Positions 9,155 to 44,264 of a stretch of 54,537 nt of DNA are shown here, piece after piece. Within the stretch, counting starts at the first letter, position 1; each line of letters starts with the position of its first letter. The notes below the pieces were generated by a model. The model worked only from the letters and a program-made list of their open reading frames with translations. It did not search any database and had not been told where the DNA came from. The position numbers were made by a program, and so were the translations under genes. The stretch spans positions 1-54,537 of the forward strand of contig DUPM01000046.1 of NCBI GenBank assembly GCA_012838315.1, in the 5' to 3' direction. Origin of the DNA: Clostridiaceae bacterium (GTDB lineage: Bacteria; Bacillota; Clostridia; Saccharofermentanales; Saccharofermentanaceae).

Positions 9155-9193
9155 AAAAAAAGGTCAAACGAGTCGGCAAACTGCCGAAAATGA

Positions 9194-9311
9194 CTTCTCT
9201 CGTCCGGACTATACCGTCGGCATCGGATTCTAACCGATTCAGCTCCTGCTCGCGGGCTCGTCGACATCTCGTCGCTTCACCGCCGGTGGGGAATCACACC
9301 CCGCCCTGAAG
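9194..9311 (-). ncRNA. FMN riboswitch (RFN element)
   Basis: The minus strand contains the conserved RFN blocks in order: CTTCAGGGCGGGGTG, ATTCCCCACCGGCGGT, AGCCCGCGAGC, GAATCCGATGCCGACGGTATAGTC and CCGGACGAGAGAAG, with the closing P1 stem CTTC/GAAG. It senses FMN and turns off ribU through the terminator at 9125-9154. Confidence 0.96.
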
Positions 9312-9319
9312 TTGGCTTG

Positions 9320-25906: not shown

Positions 25907-26815
25907 ATGAACGACCTTATCTCGCGATTAGAAACACTCAAAGCCCAGCGTGACGCTGTTGTTTTAGCTCACTATTACGTTGACGGTGACATCCAAGACG
26001 CTGCCGACTATGTGGGTGATTCCTATTACCTCAGCACCATTGCGAAAAATCGTCCCCATCAGACGATTCTTTTTTGCGGCGTAAGGTTCATGGCCGAGAG
26101 CGCAAAAATACTCAGTCCCGAAAAGACCGTCTTAATGCCTGACACCCTCGCAGACTGTCCCATGGCTCACATGGTAACACCTGAGTATGTCAACGACATA
26201 CGATCCGCTTATTCTGATTTAACTGTCGTTTGCTATATAAATTCGACAACAGAGACAAAGGCGGTTTCAGATGTTTGCGTAACATCATCGAATGCCAAAA
26301 AAATCATATCTGCCATCGATACCAAGAACATCCTATTCATTCCCGATCGTAATCTTGGCTCATATTTACAAGGGTTTTTCCCAGAGAAAAATTTTATACT
26401 GCCAAACGGCTGTTGTCCGGTCCATGACAATCTACAGATTGAAGATATATCATCTATTAAAAGTAGTATTCCCGACGCACTGGTGTTGTCTCACCCGGAA
26501 TGTGCTTCGGATATAATAAAAGTCTCTGATTTTGTAGGGAGCACCTCTGAAATTATCGCCTTTCCGGCTCAATCTGCCGCACATAATTTCATCATTTATA
26601 CCGAGAACGGAGTCGCTCACATCCTTAAGAAAAAATACCCGAGTAAGGTCTTCCATTTCCCTTCGCCGCCCCCGGTATGTAAAGATATGAAGATGATTAC
26701 TTTGGAAAAGGCAGTACACGCGCTCGAGACCATGGCAAATCCGATCGAGGTTCCGGAATCACTCAGAAAGGCTGCACAAAAATCGCTCGTGAGAATGCAC
26801 GAGCTTGCGGATTAA
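25907..26815 (+). CDS. nadA: Quinolinate synthase A
   Basis: This 302-residue Fe-S enzyme condenses iminoaspartate with dihydroxyacetone phosphate to quinolinate, the second step of de novo NAD synthesis. The three cluster ligands are Cys84 (ADCPMAH), Cys169 or 170 (PNGCCPVH) and Cys258 (PPPVCKDMK). AHYYVDGDIQDAADYVGDS is the conserved substrate region at the N terminus. It is the first gene of nadA-nadB-nadC-niaR, with a GAGGAT site before ATG 25907. The nadB start follows the stop by 4 nt. Confidence 0.96.
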   Translation: MNDLISRLETLKAQRDAVVLAHYYVDGDIQDAADYVGDSYYLSTIAKNRPHQTILFCGVRFMAESAKILSPEKTVLMPDTLADCPMAHMVTPEYVNDIRSAYSDLTVVCYINSTTETKAVSDVCVTSSNAKKIISAIDTKNILFIPDRNLGSYLQGFFPEKNFILPNGCCPVHDNLQIEDISSIKSSIPDALVLSHPECASDIIKVSDFVGSTSEIIAFPAQSAAHNFIIYTENGVAHILKKKYPSKVFHFPSPPPVCKDMKMITLEKAVHALETMANPIEVPESLRKAAQKSLVRMHELAD

Positions 26816-26819
26816 CAAT

Positions 26820-28145
26820 ATGAAAGATATGAATCAAACCATCGATGTCATCATTGTCGGCACTGGTGCCGCCGGTATTTTCTGTGCATTGAACTTGCCG
26901 GATACATTATCCATACACATGGTCACCAAAGACAGTCTTGAAAACAGCGCATCCTATTTGGCTCAGGGCGGGATTGCCGCTCTTCGGGATGCCAGTGATT
27001 ACGACGACTATTTTGAAGACACTCTCCGAGCCGGCCACTACAAAAACTCCAGAAAAGCGGTTGATACAATGATTCGTCAATCACCGCTGATTATTAGAGA
27101 ACTATTGGACTACCACGTCCGATTCAATCGCACCGGAGACGAGTTATCATACACGAAGGAGGGCGGTCACTCGCAATCCCGTATTCTTCATCATAACGAC
27201 ATCACCGGCAAGGAAATTACCAGTAAGCTACTTAACGGACTTCGAAAAAAGAGCAACATAATCATCGAAGAATACACTAGAATGGTCGATATTGTAGTTC
27301 GTGACGGCCAATGCATCGGTATTGTGACGATTGACAAGACCGGTGCACCGAAAGTTCTTTTTGCAAAGGCCGTTGTACTTGCCACGGGTGGAATCGGAGG
27401 ACTTTTTAAACATTCTACGGCGTTTTCTCATATTACCGGCGACGCATTGGCGGTCGCCGTCAAGCACAACGTCAAGCTTCGCGATGTAAACTACATTCAG
27501 ATTCACCCGACAGCGCTATATTCCGAAAAGCCGGGACGACGTTTTCTGATTTCCGAAGCGGTACGGGGCGAAGGCGCTTATTTGCTGAATGCGGCTATGG
27601 AGCGCTTCACCGATGAGCTACAGCCTCGCGATGTCGTTTCCGATGCAATTCACGAGCAGATGATTAAGGACGGGCGTGGATATGTCTATTTATCGTTAAC
27701 CCACTTGCCTGCCGAAATGATTATAACGAGATTCCCAAACATATATCAGCACTGCTTGAAGGCAGGATATGATTTGACCAAAGAGCCCATCCCCGTTACC
27801 CCTGCCCAACATTATTTCATGGGCGGAATCAAGGTGGATTTAAAGGGACAAACCTCCATGCCTTATCTTTATGCAATCGGCGAGACGAGTTGCACCGGTG
27901 TTCACGGCAAGAATCGTCTCGGAAGCAACTCATTGCTTGAGAGTTTGGTGTTTGCACAACGAGCGGCTTCGGATATCACTCAGAACATTCCATACCGGCC
28001 GACCGAACAACCTGAAATCGATTTATCAATCTATCAAGATAAAGATTTTGATCTGGAATACAAAAATATCGTCCTCGACGAAATCAAAAGAAGGGATCCA
28101 AAATTTTATGAAGAATGGTGTAATGACAATAGTCAAATGGGATGA
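26820..28145 (+). CDS. nadB: L-aspartate oxidase
   Basis: This 441-residue FAD enzyme oxidises L-aspartate to iminoaspartate, the substrate of NadA. The FAD-binding DVIIVGTGAAGI, SSYLAQGGIAA-like ASYLAQGGIAAL, HPTAL, RGEGAYLLN and the C-terminal GETSCTGVHGKNRLGSNSLLE are visible. It is about 100 residues shorter than the E. coli enzyme and lacks the C-terminal helical domain, as is common in Clostridia. I start at ATG 26820 since similarity begins there; the binding site is weak, consistent with coupling to nadA. It overlaps nadC by 23 nt. Confidence 0.94.
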   Translation: MKDMNQTIDVIIVGTGAAGIFCALNLPDTLSIHMVTKDSLENSASYLAQGGIAALRDASDYDDYFEDTLRAGHYKNSRKAVDTMIRQSPLIIRELLDYHVRFNRTGDELSYTKEGGHSQSRILHHNDITGKEITSKLLNGLRKKSNIIIEEYTRMVDIVVRDGQCIGIVTIDKTGAPKVLFAKAVVLATGGIGGLFKHSTAFSHITGDALAVAVKHNVKLRDVNYIQIHPTALYSEKPGRRFLISEAVRGEGAYLLNAAMERFTDELQPRDVVSDAIHEQMIKDGRGYVYLSLTHLPAEMIITRFPNIYQHCLKAGYDLTKEPIPVTPAQHYFMGGIKVDLKGQTSMPYLYAIGETSCTGVHGKNRLGSNSLLESLVFAQRAASDITQNIPYRPTEQPEIDLSIYQDKDFDLEYKNIVLDEIKRRDPKFYEEWCNDNSQMG

Positions 28146-28965
28146 GGCCATCATTAGTGCGCTCAAGGAGGATATCACATACGAAGATATCAGTACACAA
28201 GCGGTCATGCCAAAACCGACAGCAGTCAGCGTCGACTTGATTTGCAAGCAAGACGGGATCATATGCGGACTCGACGTTTTTGAGAGAGTATTTACCTTGT
28301 TGGATGCTAAGGTTATTTTCAAGCGCTTTGTTAATGACGGAGATCTTGTCAAAGCCGGAAGCAAAGTCGGTGTGCTCACAGGTGACGGCAGAGTCATATT
28401 GTCCGGAGAACGTACGGCACTTAATTTTCTTCAGCGCATGAGCGGGATAGCAACGCTCACCTCGCAGATGGTCAAAGCGCTTGACGGTTCAGGAACGCGC
28501 TTGCTTGATACAAGAAAGACGACACCCAACATGCGTGTTTTTGAAAAGTATGCAGTGAAGTGCGGCGGCGGAACCAATCACCGCTACAATCTATCCGACG
28601 GTGTTCTTCTGAAAGACAATCACATTGACGCAGCGGGCTCTGTAAAGCGCGCAATTGAAATGGCGCGTGCATATGCGCCCTTCGTTCGTAAAATTGAAGT
28701 GGAGGTAGAAAACCTCGATATGTTACAGGAAGCGCTGGATGCAGGGGCCGACATCGTCATGCTCGATAACATGGACAATGAGACCATCATAAAAGCTGTT
28801 GCGATGGTGCGTGGCAAGGCACAGACAGAAGTGTCCGGCAACGTCACAATGTCTAGACTTGAAGAACTATCGAAGTTGGGTGTGGACTTTATCTCATCCG
28901 GGGCATTGACGCACTCTGCACCGATTTTAGATTTGTCGATGAAGAACCTTCATCCGATTAAGTAA
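28123..28965 (+). CDS. nadC: Nicotinate-nucleotide diphosphorylase (quinolinate phosphoribosyltransferase)
   Basis: This 280-residue enzyme converts quinolinate and PRPP to nicotinate mononucleotide with loss of CO2, completing the de novo branch. Signature segments are LNFLQRMSGIATLT, LLDTRKTTPNMRVFEKYAVKCGGGTNHRYNLSD (shortened here by description: the RKTTP and GGGTNHR motifs), KDNHI and the EVEVENLD/DIVMLDNM strands. ATG 28123 lies inside the end of nadB; an alternative ATG at 28108 adds five residues. Expression is probably coupled to nadB. Confidence 0.95.
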   Translation: MTIVKWDEAIISALKEDITYEDISTQAVMPKPTAVSVDLICKQDGIICGLDVFERVFTLLDAKVIFKRFVNDGDLVKAGSKVGVLTGDGRVILSGERTALNFLQRMSGIATLTSQMVKALDGSGTRLLDTRKTTPNMRVFEKYAVKCGGGTNHRYNLSDGVLLKDNHIDAAGSVKRAIEMARAYAPFVRKIEVEVENLDMLQEALDAGADIVMLDNMDNETIIKAVAMVRGKAQTEVSGNVTMSRLEELSKLGVDFISSGALTHSAPILDLSMKNLHPIK

Positions 28966-29036
28966 CCATTTTGCCAACCCACGCAACATACCCAGAACCG
29001 CATGTGCGCACCATCTCAAAGCCGGAGGCAGAACGA

Positions 29037-29549
29037 TTGGACAACGGATCGAGAAGAATAAAGATAATGGAGATTCTTAGAAATCGCATTGAACCGATTT
29101 CCGGAAGTGACTTAGCGCGCGAGTTAGGCGTGAGCCGACAAGTCATCGTACAGGATATCGCTTTTCTTCGCGCTTCCGGCGAATCCGTTTTGTCCACCGG
29201 AAAGGGATACTTGCCCGGTGAATTATCGCAGGATGGGTTTTCGCGTGTCGTATTTGTGCGCCACCGCGCAGACGAAATCCGAGATGAATTGTATACCATT
29301 GTCGATTTTGGCGGCCGTATACAGGATGTCTTTGTTATACATCCGGTCTATGGAAAAATTTCGGCAGAACTGTCTGTGCGCAATCGAAAAGATGCAGATT
29401 GTTTTCTTAGGGATATTCATAACAAGAAGACCAAGCCACTTCTCGAACTCACCGGTGCGGTTCACGCGCATACGATCACGGCCGAGAGCCAAGAATCCTT
29501 GGACGCCATTGTCGAAGCGCTGAAAGACCGAGGATATCTTAGCGAGTGA
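29037..29549 (+). CDS. niaR: NiaR transcriptional repressor of NAD synthesis
   Basis: This 170-residue niacin-responsive repressor (YrxA type) has an N-terminal winged HTH (RIKIMEILRNRIEPISGSDLARELGVSRQVIVQDI region) and a C-terminal 3H domain in which three His positions bind metal and ligand: VFVIHPVYGKI, RDIHNKKTKPL, and GAVHAHTI. I choose the TTG at 29037: GGAGG at 29024-29028 is 8 nt upstream and the protein then begins MDNGSRRIKIME, the normal family start. The frame is open to 28971 without a site. As last gene of the nad operon it likely represses its own synthesis through the palindrome in the nadA promoter. Confidence 0.92.
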   Translation: MDNGSRRIKIMEILRNRIEPISGSDLARELGVSRQVIVQDIAFLRASGESVLSTGKGYLPGELSQDGFSRVVFVRHRADEIRDELYTIVDFGGRIQDVFVIHPVYGKISAELSVRNRKDADCFLRDIHNKKTKPLLELTGAVHAHTITAESQESLDAIVEALKDRGYLSE

Positions 29550-29574: not shown

Positions 29575-29602
29575 TTGATTTCAAGCGCATCTATGCTATA
29601 AT
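29575..29602 (+). promoter_or_regulatory. Promoter of the DUF1538/PII pair
   Basis: TTGATT (29575-29580) and a perfect TATAAT (29597-29602) are 16 nt apart, giving a leader of about 60 nt. Confidence 0.65.
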
Positions 29603-29616
29603 CAAGGTTAAAATCC

Positions 29617-29640
29617 AACCGTGGCAACACGGTTTTACTT
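29617..29640 (+). terminator. GNRA-capped hairpin in the DUF1538 leader
   Basis: AACCGTG (29617-29623) pairs with CACGGTT (29628-29634) around a GCAA tetraloop and is followed by TTACTTATTT. It begins about 8 nt after the predicted transcription start. It may end the nad operon transcript, act as an attenuator, or stabilise the 5' end of the new mRNA. The T run is short, so termination is unproven. Confidence 0.45.
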
Positions 29641-29669: not shown

Positions 29670-31160
29670 ATGACACTTTTAGTCGATAAATTTAAAGAAG
29701 TACTCTTGTCGGTATTCCCGATTGTGATTCTTGTGTTATTGGCTAAAGTTTTGTTTGTCCCTATATCAATTGATGCGATGCTTCGGTTTTTGTTGGGTGC
29801 GATAATAATTATCATCGGTTTAGCATTTTTTCTTGCGGGCGTCGAAATAGGTGTCGCCCCCATCGGTCATTTCTTGGGCGAGAAATTAATTCGTAGCGGA
29901 AAACTGGTTATCCTTCTGGCGTCAAGCATCGCGCTCGCTTTTTTCATATCGGTTGCCGAGCCAGACTTGCGTATTCTAGCTTCGCAAGTGGATTTAGTAT
30001 CCGGCGGAGCCATCCCGAAGTTTCTGTTGGTCATCGTTGTTTCTTTGGGATTTGCCACCCTGATGTCTGTGGGTATGATTCGCATCATTCGGAATATTCC
30101 GGTATACATCGTCATGCTTGTAATTTACGGTGTGATATTGATTCTTTCGTTTTTTGTTTCGCCTGAATTTTTATCCGTCGCCTTCGACGCATCCGGTGCA
30201 ACCACCGGTGCATTGTCTGTCCCCGTCATTTTGGCTATTTCGATTGGTGCCTCGAAGCTCAAGAAGAACACCAAGGCCTCAGAGAAGGACAGTTTCGGCT
30301 TGGTCGGCATTATTTCAACCGGCCCGATTCTGGCGGTTTTGATGCTCGGTCTACTTCTTCGACCAAATTTTTCTGTCGCCGGTCCCGACGAGATTATTCA
30401 AACGTCGAATGGCTCGATTGTTGGGCCCTTTCTTTCTTCTTTTCGAACATCACTAATTGAGACCGGAGTGTCGCTACTTCCAATTGTCATATTCTTCCTC
30501 TTCTTCGCACTTCGCAAGGGCGCGATGATGAAGCGCGACATTAACCGCGCTCTCAAGGGACTGGGCTACGCGTTCATCGGGCTTTCTTTGTTTCTTTGCG
30601 GAGTGCACACCGGCTTTTTGGATGTTGGCAGACTCATCGGTCTTCACGCTGGACAAATACCGAATCGGGCCCCCATCATCGTTACCGCTTTCGTATTGGG
30701 TCTAATTACCGTTTTAGCCGAACCGGCCGTTCACGTTCTGACTGCGGATATTGAAAGGGTTACGGGCGGCTATGTCAAGAAGAAGGCCGTAATGGTTTCT
30801 CTGTCTTTAGGCGTTGCGCTTGCGATTACCTTTTCGGTCCTTCGCATCATCATACCCGCATTGCAACTTTGGCATTTTCTCTTACCCGGCTACGTCATCG
30901 CCCTTGCGCTAACATTCATTTCACCGAAGATATTTGTCGGTATGGCTTTTGATGCAGGCGGGGTCGCCTCCGGCCCTATGACCGCAACCTTCATTCTCGC
31001 ATTCACTTCAGGAGCAGCGTCCGCTGTTGAAGGAGCGAATGCGCTATCGGACGGCTTTGGTATGATTGCAATGGTTGCGATGATGCCGATTATCACAATC
31101 CAGATTCTCGGTACGCTTTTCAAAATCAAGTCGCGCAAGAACAAAGGAGTGTCAACATGA
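29670..31160 (+). CDS. DUF1538-family membrane protein (predicted transporter)
   Basis: This 496-residue protein is almost entirely hydrophobic, with about 12 helices arranged as two related halves (about 1-240 and 250-490). Repeated blocks such as FLAGVEIGVAPIGHFLGE versus FLCGVHTGFLDVGRLIGL, and VAEPDLRILASQVD versus LAEPAVHVLTADIE, show the internal duplication typical of DUF1538. Gly-rich segments SVAFDASGATTGALSVP and GMAFDAGGVASGPMTATF recur in equivalent positions. The family is unassigned; the repeat architecture suggests a transporter or channel. ATG 29670 has GGGGAG upstream. It overlaps the PII-like gene by 4 nt, a strong sign of functional coupling. Confidence 0.85.
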   Translation: MTLLVDKFKEVLLSVFPIVILVLLAKVLFVPISIDAMLRFLLGAIIIIIGLAFFLAGVEIGVAPIGHFLGEKLIRSGKLVILLASSIALAFFISVAEPDLRILASQVDLVSGGAIPKFLLVIVVSLGFATLMSVGMIRIIRNIPVYIVMLVIYGVILILSFFVSPEFLSVAFDASGATTGALSVPVILAISIGASKLKKNTKASEKDSFGLVGIISTGPILAVLMLGLLLRPNFSVAGPDEIIQTSNGSIVGPFLSSFRTSLIETGVSLLPIVIFFLFFALRKGAMMKRDINRALKGLGYAFIGLSLFLCGVHTGFLDVGRLIGLHAGQIPNRAPIIVTAFVLGLITVLAEPAVHVLTADIERVTGGYVKKKAVMVSLSLGVALAITFSVLRIIIPALQLWHFLLPGYVIALALTFISPKIFVGMAFDAGGVASGPMTATFILAFTSGAASAVEGANALSDGFGMIAMVAMMPIITIQILGTLFKIKSRKNKGVST

Positions 31161-31843
31161 TAGCGGAAACCACCAGAGATTATTCCATTTTGACAGTTGT
31201 CGTTCACCGAGATTACGCCGAGCGTGTCATGCGCATCGCAAGGAAGTGCGGCATCACGGGGAGCACCGTTCACTATGCTTCGGGTTATTCTTCAAACCCC
31301 TTACTACGCGCACTGTCACTTTCCGACGTATCACTTGAGATGGTCATCATGCTTGCCGAAAGATCTATAGCTATTGACACAATGAATAACCTCGACCGTG
31401 TTTTCAAATTCCACAAACGCCACCACGGTTACGCATTCTGCGCTCCCGTTACGGCAATTACAGGAATTAAGAGTTGCGAAGGTTTTTGCAACGCATCACC
31501 AAAAGGAGAGACCGATATGAAATACCGAGCCATTTATACCATCGTCGATCGCGGAAACGCCGAAAACGTTATTGAAGCAGCGAAAAAGGCCGGTGCCAAA
31601 GGCGGCACCGTTATTCAAGGTCGCGGCTCCGGTATACACGAATCAGAGGTGTTGTTTTCGATTGCCATCGAACCTGAAAAAGAGATTATTTTGGTCATCT
31701 GCCCCGACACGGATGCACCGGCAATTGTTGAATCAATACGTAAAGATCTGAATATCGATGAGCCCGGCCGCGGTATCATTTATGTCCAAAAAGTCGAACA
31801 TGCCATCGGCGTCTCGGGACTCGAAGAATCCCCTGTGAACTAA
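31157..31843 (+). CDS. Double PII-like regulatory protein
   Basis: This 228-residue soluble protein has two ferredoxin-like PII-related domains. The N-terminal one (about 8-105) starts SILTVVVHRDYAERVMRIARKCGITGSTVHYASG. The C-terminal one (about 121-220) is closer to GlnK: YTIVDRGNAENVIEAAKKAGAKGGTVIQGRG, then PEKEIILVICP and IDEPGRGIIYVQKVEHAIGV. PII proteins sense ATP/ADP and 2-oxoglutarate or other small molecules and often bind a membrane transporter. Coupling to DUF1538 by a 4-nt overlap suggests it gates that protein, by analogy with GlnK-AmtB. An AAGGAG site with ATG 31517 precedes the second domain. Confidence 0.85.
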   Translation: MIAETTRDYSILTVVVHRDYAERVMRIARKCGITGSTVHYASGYSSNPLLRALSLSDVSLEMVIMLAERSIAIDTMNNLDRVFKFHKRHHGYAFCAPVTAITGIKSCEGFCNASPKGETDMKYRAIYTIVDRGNAENVIEAAKKAGAKGGTVIQGRGSGIHESEVLFSIAIEPEKEIILVICPDTDAPAIVESIRKDLNIDEPGRGIIYVQKVEHAIGVSGLEESPVN

Positions 31844-31851
31844 GACAATAA

Positions 31852-31889
31852 GCCGCTAGCTCTTGTCCGTGTTCCACCAAGGCTTGGCG
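31852..31889. repeat. 38-bp direct repeat, copy 1
   Basis: This 38-bp sequence is identical to 31921-31958. The period is 69 bp. This copy lies outside any gene, 8 nt past the PII gene stop. It repeats the last codons and stop of the adjacent minus-strand gene. Confidence 0.9.
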
Positions 31890-31920: not shown

Positions 31921-31958
31921 GCCGCTAGCTCTTGTCCGTGTTCCACCAAGGCTTGGCG
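31921..31958. repeat. 38-bp direct repeat, copy 2 (3' end of the multidomain gene)
   Basis: This copy encodes the C-terminal AKPWWNTDKS and stop of the minus-strand multidomain protein. The exact extra copy at 31852-31889 indicates a small tandem duplication of the gene end. Confidence 0.9.
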
Positions 31959-43894: not shown

Positions 43895-44264
43895 GTTCAT
43901 ATTCTTCTTTTCAAGTGAATTGCAGACTGGAACAATTTGACCGCCATCGCCTTGATGCTTTGGTGAATAGGCCATACGGACAGCCGGGTCAAACGCCGAT
44001 CGGCAACTCATGTTGCCTTATTGATTGGGTTCGAAGCCCAAATTTATAAGTTGGTTACTTTATAACCATTGTGCCTACGCACAACTTAACTTGTGAATGG
44101 TCAATAAGAGTATGAAGGCGTTAGCTGAATCGACTCTGGACATGTCTGGATATGGATTGTGGATTATTCCCTTTTTATGTCCCTACAAGATGACATACGC
44201 AAGTTTTGTTGCCGCCGGCAAGAAAGACTGGCGTTTTTTATTTTTACAAGAAGGGCGAACTGTA
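43895..44264 (+). ncRNA. Structured leader RNA of the polyamine operon (candidate attenuator or riboswitch)
   Basis: The stretch between the predicted promoter and speD is non-coding and packed with stems. TTTGACC (43936-43942) pairs with GGTCAAA (43987-43993). GGCAAC (44002-44007) pairs with GTTGCC (44012-44017), with a competing GCC/GGC stem at 43995-44004. TTGGG (44025-44029) pairs with CCCAA (44037-44041) around TTCGAAG. TATAAGT (44045-44051) pairs with ACTTTATA (44057-44064), and GGTTA (44053-44057) with TAACC (44063-44067) as a competitor. TTGTGC (44069-44074) pairs with GCACAA (44079-44084). GGACAT (44138-44143) pairs with ATGTCC (44177-44182). A second GGTCAA at 44099-44104 could replace the first. 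An intrinsic terminator closes the leader. It matches no riboswitch class I recognise. Confidence 0.6.
44213..44245 (+). terminator. Leader terminator immediately upstream of speD
   Basis: CGCCGG (44213-44218) pairs with CTGGCG (44228-44233, one G-U pair) around a 9-nt loop, followed by TTTTTTATTTTT. It ends just before the AAGAAGGG binding site of speD. A competing short stem, TTGCC/GGCAA, overlaps its 5' arm. Confidence 0.75.

Follow-up and report, generated by a model that had tools for sequence, protein, structure and literature searches.

The only DUF1538 member whose activity has been measured is UmpAB of Halomonas zhaodongensis, a heterodimer with Na+(Li+,K+)/H+ antiport activity that depends on pH (PMC5484666; NF041627/NF041628). 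UmpAB was active in E. coli when cloned on an insert of 4.2 kb, for which only ORF1-4 are listed, none of them a PII (PMC5484666), and therefore a PII protein is not required for transport itself. Gating of transporters by PII proteins has precedents in GlnK-AmtB and SbtB-SbtA (PMC13249358). Here we describe two contiguous genes, one for a DUF1538 membrane protein and one for a tandem PII protein, located in a window of 54,537 nucleotides (the whole stretch of DNA that was analyzed). We hold with moderate confidence that this pair is an operon for a DUF1538 (UmpAB)-type monovalent cation/proton antiporter and its dedicated PII gate.

As a previous reading made from the sequence alone had stated, the two genes overlap by 4 nt (Table 1), and this ATGA overlap may couple their translation. 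The sequence GGGGAG is found 6 nt upstream of the DUF1538 start codon at 29670, and 67 nt separate that codon from a promoter-like site. That both genes share a single promoter, as had also been proposed, is plausible, the site being a consensus match that is no functional evidence by itself. Downstream of the promoter-like site, and still ahead of the DUF1538 gene, there is a hairpin with a T-rich stretch after it (29617-29634), which could be the terminator of the upstream gene or a leader attenuator, although such sites occur at near chance rate. The genes directly upstream, on the same strand, are nadB-like and nadC-like and are accompanied by one for a 3H-domain regulator (26805-29549). 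Right after the PII gene lies a 38-base perfect direct repeat (31852-31889 and 31921-31958, 69 bases apart) that covers the 3' end of the gene convergent with it. Elsewhere, the window contains an FMN riboswitch (9188-9317, minus strand, 99.9 bits) and an Rfam match above gathering score, unexpected here, to the Streptococcus sRNA family SpF59 (43938-43999). In the window, and likewise in 30 further loci, the sequence preceding DUF1538 contained no riboswitch that would hint at an effector. One for c-di-AMP was found immediately after a DUF1538-PII-PII operon (L164, 4491-4663) but was discarded as a clue to the effector: the gene that follows it resembles asparagine synthetase, and the riboswitch probably has nothing to do with the operon.

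Table 1. Features of the DUF1538-PII locus (window positions)
Feature	Position	Strand	Basis
Promoter-like site TTGATT-16-tgTATAAT	29575..29602	+	Consensus scan, 10/12 matches
DUF1538 gene, 496 aa	29670..31160	+	ATG start; PF07556 twice, 1e-123
DUF1538 repeat 1	29721..30356	+	PF07556 match 1-211, 204.5 bits
AEP motif, repeat 1 (E97)	29955..29963	+	Invariant in alignment A1; E97 invariant in A2; model helix break
FDASGATTG motif, repeat 1 (D173)	30183..30209	+	D173 invariant in A1 and A2; model helix break
DUF1538 repeat 2	30483..31115	+	PF07556 match 1-210, 212.8 bits
AEP motif, repeat 2 (E351)	30717..30725	+	Invariant in A1; L132 equivalent E347 invariant in A2
FDAGGVASG motif, repeat 2 (D428)	30948..30974	+	D428 invariant in A1; L132 equivalent D424 invariant in A2
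Tandem PII regulator gene, 228 aa	31157..31843	+	PF00543 2.1e-15; model pLDDT 88.5
ATGA start/stop overlap, 4 nt	31157..31160	+	Read directly from sequence
PII domain 1 (T1 type, diverged)	31190..31471	+	PF00543 about 19.5-19.7 bits, below cut-off 25
PII domain 2 (T2 type)	31532..31813	+	PF00543 about 41-41.8 bits, above cut-off 25

The membrane protein matched only PF07556 in Pfam, with two domains and a whole-protein score of 411 bits (gathering cut-off 22.6); it is neither an Amt-family channel nor SbtA, and the Pfam search gave no match to PF00999 up to an E of 1. Its two halves align to each other at a score of 244 (shuffle mean 49, sd 9). Together, the two repeats would make up a single antiporter unit that corresponds to the heterodimer of UmpA and UmpB; in the window they are encoded by one fused gene, and split gene pairs exist in relatives. 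The nearest NCBIfam models are those of UmpA and UmpB (1.9e-45 and 1.2e-43), the equivalog cut-offs of which were missed (155.1/490 and 149.4/500 bits). The earlier claim that the transported substrate is unknown was too strong, given that UmpAB, the only DUF1538 pair studied, exchanges Na+ (Li+, K+) for H+. Antiport by the window protein is suggested by its distant relationship to UmpAB, and since it scores far below the equivalog cut-offs, its ion could differ.

Among 71 aligned DUF1538 proteins, E97, D173, E347, and D424 (L132 numbering) are invariant, with several glycines nearby. In the confident model (pLDDT 88.2) of a homologous natural fusion, both repeats have their AEP and FDxxGxxxG motifs at or near helix breaks. 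Helix breaks are a frequent place of ion binding in secondary transporters. E97 and D173 are candidate ion-coupling acids, and the paired acids in the broken helices probably carry the ions. No solved relative of the membrane part was found by sequence profile. Searched within the fusion model, the membrane domain gave a best Foldseek E of 0.02 with TM under 0.25, and the matches listed by VIA-align were all to the PII domain; these searches used the whole fusion model, and a missing match would not by itself establish a new fold.

When both partners were searched separately in 398 genomes of the phylum, DUF1538 was present in 139, DUF1538-type PII in 140, and both in 137. The sequence-only reading had named frequent occurrence of each gene alone in other genomes as a finding that would speak against it; this was checked and did not turn out so, since 137 of the 139 genomes with DUF1538 also carry the PII. 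Excluding the genome of the window, 136 are common to the 138 with DUF1538 and the 139 with PII (Fisher p about 1e-100). The two genomes with only DUF1538 are G401, where it lies at a contig end, and G153, where the matches are weak. Kinship and selection affect the individual loci: some of the fetched loci are not independent of each other, such as L143 and L201 with their identical PII genes, and 60 loci of the phylum were chosen by DUF1538 score. The 398-genome test is free of both problems. All the fetched loci together comprised 176 DUF1538 clusters with an adjacent co-directional PII gene and eight without it, most of the latter being contig ends or short fragments. Among the DUF1538 loci fetched from the same order and family, almost every one that does not run into a contig end has a PII gene next to it, and so do 78 of 80 named loci from a genome collection (mostly Bacillota, with Mobiluncus as an actinobacterium and a bin of Spirochaetales). 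The exceptions are L109, the contig of which stops 750 bases downstream, and L098, which may be a chimeric assembly, the sole sign of this being unusual reading frames downstream. In a plasmid collection, DUF1538 and PII queries run apart matched the identical nine of 72,556 records, and the matches included alphaproteobacterial umpA-umpB-PII operons. These results strongly supported that the link between DUF1538 and PII is real and general.

The association goes as far as gene fusion. At least 16 loci code for a single DUF1538-DUF1538-PII chain, with the PII at the C-terminus of DUF1538; since the fused PII is soluble, this C-terminus should be cytosolic. In all 15 fusion loci for which the preceding sequence is available, it contains a tandem PII gene, which brings the number of PII domains per antiporter to three. 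In other loci, three PII domains are in one chain (L039, L040, L062, and L066) or distributed as two plus one (L043, L055, L070, and L072). Where the antiporter is split, it is accompanied by one or two PII genes; a few loci are 1:1, and the DUF1538:PII ratios found across loci are 1:1, 2:1, 2:2, and 2:3. The match in repeat number that had been taken as evidence of gating is thus true for the window (2:2), but it is not a rule, since 1:1, 2:1, and 2:3 also exist. Two DUF1538-PII operons lie side by side in one genome in L209, L186, L190, and L111.

In a phylogenetic tree of PII domains, based on few columns and with its deeper forks unsure, domain 1 of the window protein grouped with sequences of the T1 type or of first PII genes (100/99), as most domain 1 sequences do, and domain 2 with those of the T2 type, of second PII genes and of fused domains (99/96). 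The fused PII domain showed a single origin (100/99). This suggests a history in which one PII gave rise to two unlike PII genes, followed by gene fusion and by the addition of a third, tethered domain. Because PII proteins work as trimers, it may be speculated that the three PII domains per antiporter form one heterotrimer.

The tandem PII protein of the window reached 57.3 bits against PF00543 as a whole (cut-off 25), and its halves align to each other at 65 (shuffle mean 24.9, sd 4.2, max 44). The model, a monomer prediction, consists of two PII-type ferredoxin-like domains, and the structures closest to it are PII proteins (domain 2 to 1hwu: Z 11.1, rmsd 2.1, 83 residues). The best PDB profile match of the protein was 9p1x (3.7e-07), presumably a NifI. 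Alignment to E. coli GlnK (L226) revealed that T-loop residues 41-46 are absent from DUF1538-type PII proteins and that Tyr51, Q39, K58, K90, R101, and R103 are not kept; at these GlnK positions, domain 2 of the window has F51, H39, E58, I90, G101, and S103. In GlnK, Q39 and K58 are 2-oxoglutarate residues, and K90, R101, and R103 are ATP residues. The B-loop glycines are kept, and DUF1538-type PII proteins have strongly conserved EPEKE and PGxGIxF segments of their own. Judging from these residues, classical sensing of ATP and 2-oxoglutarate is unlikely, and a ligand of the adenine-nucleotide type is possible.

The loss of the canonical ATP and 2-oxoglutarate residues, together with the near-obligate presence of PII and its fusions, could also be explained if PII were a structural subunit or an assembly factor of the transporter instead of a ligand-controlled regulator. 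We consider this improbable, since UmpAB showed activity from a clone lacking any PII gene, and since the strong conservation of EPEKE and PGxGIxF is the pattern that a ligand-binding or docking site should show. In the genome of the window (95% complete), no canonical GlnB or GlnK over the Pfam cut-off was found besides the window PII. PII proteins such as GlnB and GlnK often have several targets, and both facts would be compatible with a PII that senses the occupancy of the transporter and signals elsewhere, the membrane protein being its anchor or sensor. This we regard as very improbable, because the C-terminal fusions link PII to the transporter and because a non-systematic look at the neighbors, in the loci inspected for these two genes, found no third partner family.

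Related PII genes were also found next to other transporters. In G098, one of them adjoins a PF00999 sodium/hydrogen exchanger gene. Using this PII as a query, matches were obtained in 103 of the 398 genomes, some of the weakest being DUF1538-type PII proteins. In the 32 distinct loci inspected (the 30 with the best scores, one from a Subdoligranulum plasmid and one from the genome to which the window belongs), a PF00999-type gene was immediately adjacent to the sister PII gene in all cases, PF00999 being confirmed by Pfam in four. In the window's own genome (G000:C81, L033 200-1761, minus strand), the PII gene (116 aa) overlaps the PF00999 exchanger gene by ATGA. In G464 (L223 3658-5592), a genome without DUF1538, a DUF1538-type PII gene lies beside one for a transporter of the CitMHS/ArsB superfamily. 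The presence of PII beside unrelated families of cation/proton antiporters independently favors an antiporter role for DUF1538.

The CitMHS/ArsB neighbor, the low scores of the window protein against the UmpA and UmpB equivalog models and the gating of a Na+/bicarbonate symporter by SbtB (PMC13249358) would also fit a PII-gated transporter of a metabolite or anion (e.g., bicarbonate or a carboxylate), with cation/proton exchange as a side activity of UmpAB. This seems to us unlikely, although less so than the two explanations above, since Na+(Li+,K+)/H+ antiport is the activity measured for the sole DUF1538 member assayed, and since the sister PII proteins accompany PF00999 sodium/hydrogen exchangers.

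We therefore keep the PII-gated cation/proton antiporter as the preferred reading. The tandem PII would be produced with the antiporter by coupled translation and would dock on its cytoplasmic face, where an effector bound in the PII clefts would change the exchange, most likely restraining it. Restraint instead of activation is our guess, by analogy with GlnK-AmtB and SbtB-SbtA and from the fact that UmpAB works without PII. The dedicated gated transporter of the sequence-only reading stood as far as the PII-transporter pair is concerned, which is strongly supported by co-occurrence, adjacency and fusions, whereas plugging in the manner of AmtB is an analogy, and the shortened T-loop makes such a plug uncertain. 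The low scores against the UmpA and UmpB equivalog models also count against the PII-gated antiporter, as do the symmetry mismatch between a PII trimer and a two-fold antiporter and the lack of a convincing match for the membrane domain among solved structures. With less assurance, and as a tentative proposal, a branch of PII proteins with a non-canonical effector site may be dedicated to gating antiporters that exchange monovalent cations for protons and that come from no fewer than two unrelated families, perhaps from three (DUF1538, PF00999, and CitMHS/ArsB); in its DUF1538 branch, one PII gene would have led to two unlike domains and then to a third one fused to the transporter, resulting in a heterotrimeric gate with one domain tethered.

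In the open-access literature, no earlier report was found that connects PII with DUF1538 or with antiporters of the cation/proton type, and the PII-antiporter module is real, general and apparently unreported. Every cell depends on keeping protons and sodium in balance, and how metabolism switches antiporters is seldom known. If PII proteins gate antiporters, PII gating would be widened from uptake (ammonium, bicarbonate, nitrate) to ion extrusion, and many genes annotated as "P-II family nitrogen regulator" would be mislabelled, coding in fact for regulators of ion homeostasis. The natural fusions offer a direct handle for structures and for the search for effectors.

Compared with known systems, the window pair resembles UmpAB in its DUF1538 domains, in the E, D, and R residues conserved in both repeats and in its two homologous halves. 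It differs in that UmpAB is encoded by two separate genes instead of one, in that the window protein is distant and below the equivalog cut-offs, and in its PII, which is not mentioned in the main text of the UmpAB paper (PMC5484666). As in GlnK-AmtB, a PII-fold protein is encoded beside a membrane transporter; however, AmtB is an ammonium channel unrelated to DUF1538, and the window PII has a T-loop without Tyr51 and about six residues and has not kept Q39, K58, K90, R101, and R103 of GlnK. SbtB-SbtA is similar in pairing a divergent PII with one transporter and in matching the PII fold, but its transporter belongs to another family, and the PII of DUF1538 systems is tandem or fused. NifI1-NifI2 likewise pairs two PII subunits that differ from each other; NifI acts on nitrogenase, whereas in DUF1538 systems the pair is usually one chain and is linked to a transporter. 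Finally, the pairs of PF00999 exchanger and single PII share a PII gene adjoining that of a cation/proton antiporter and, in the window's genome, the same 4-nt overlap, and they differ in an antiporter family unrelated to DUF1538 and in a single PII with a longer T-loop region.
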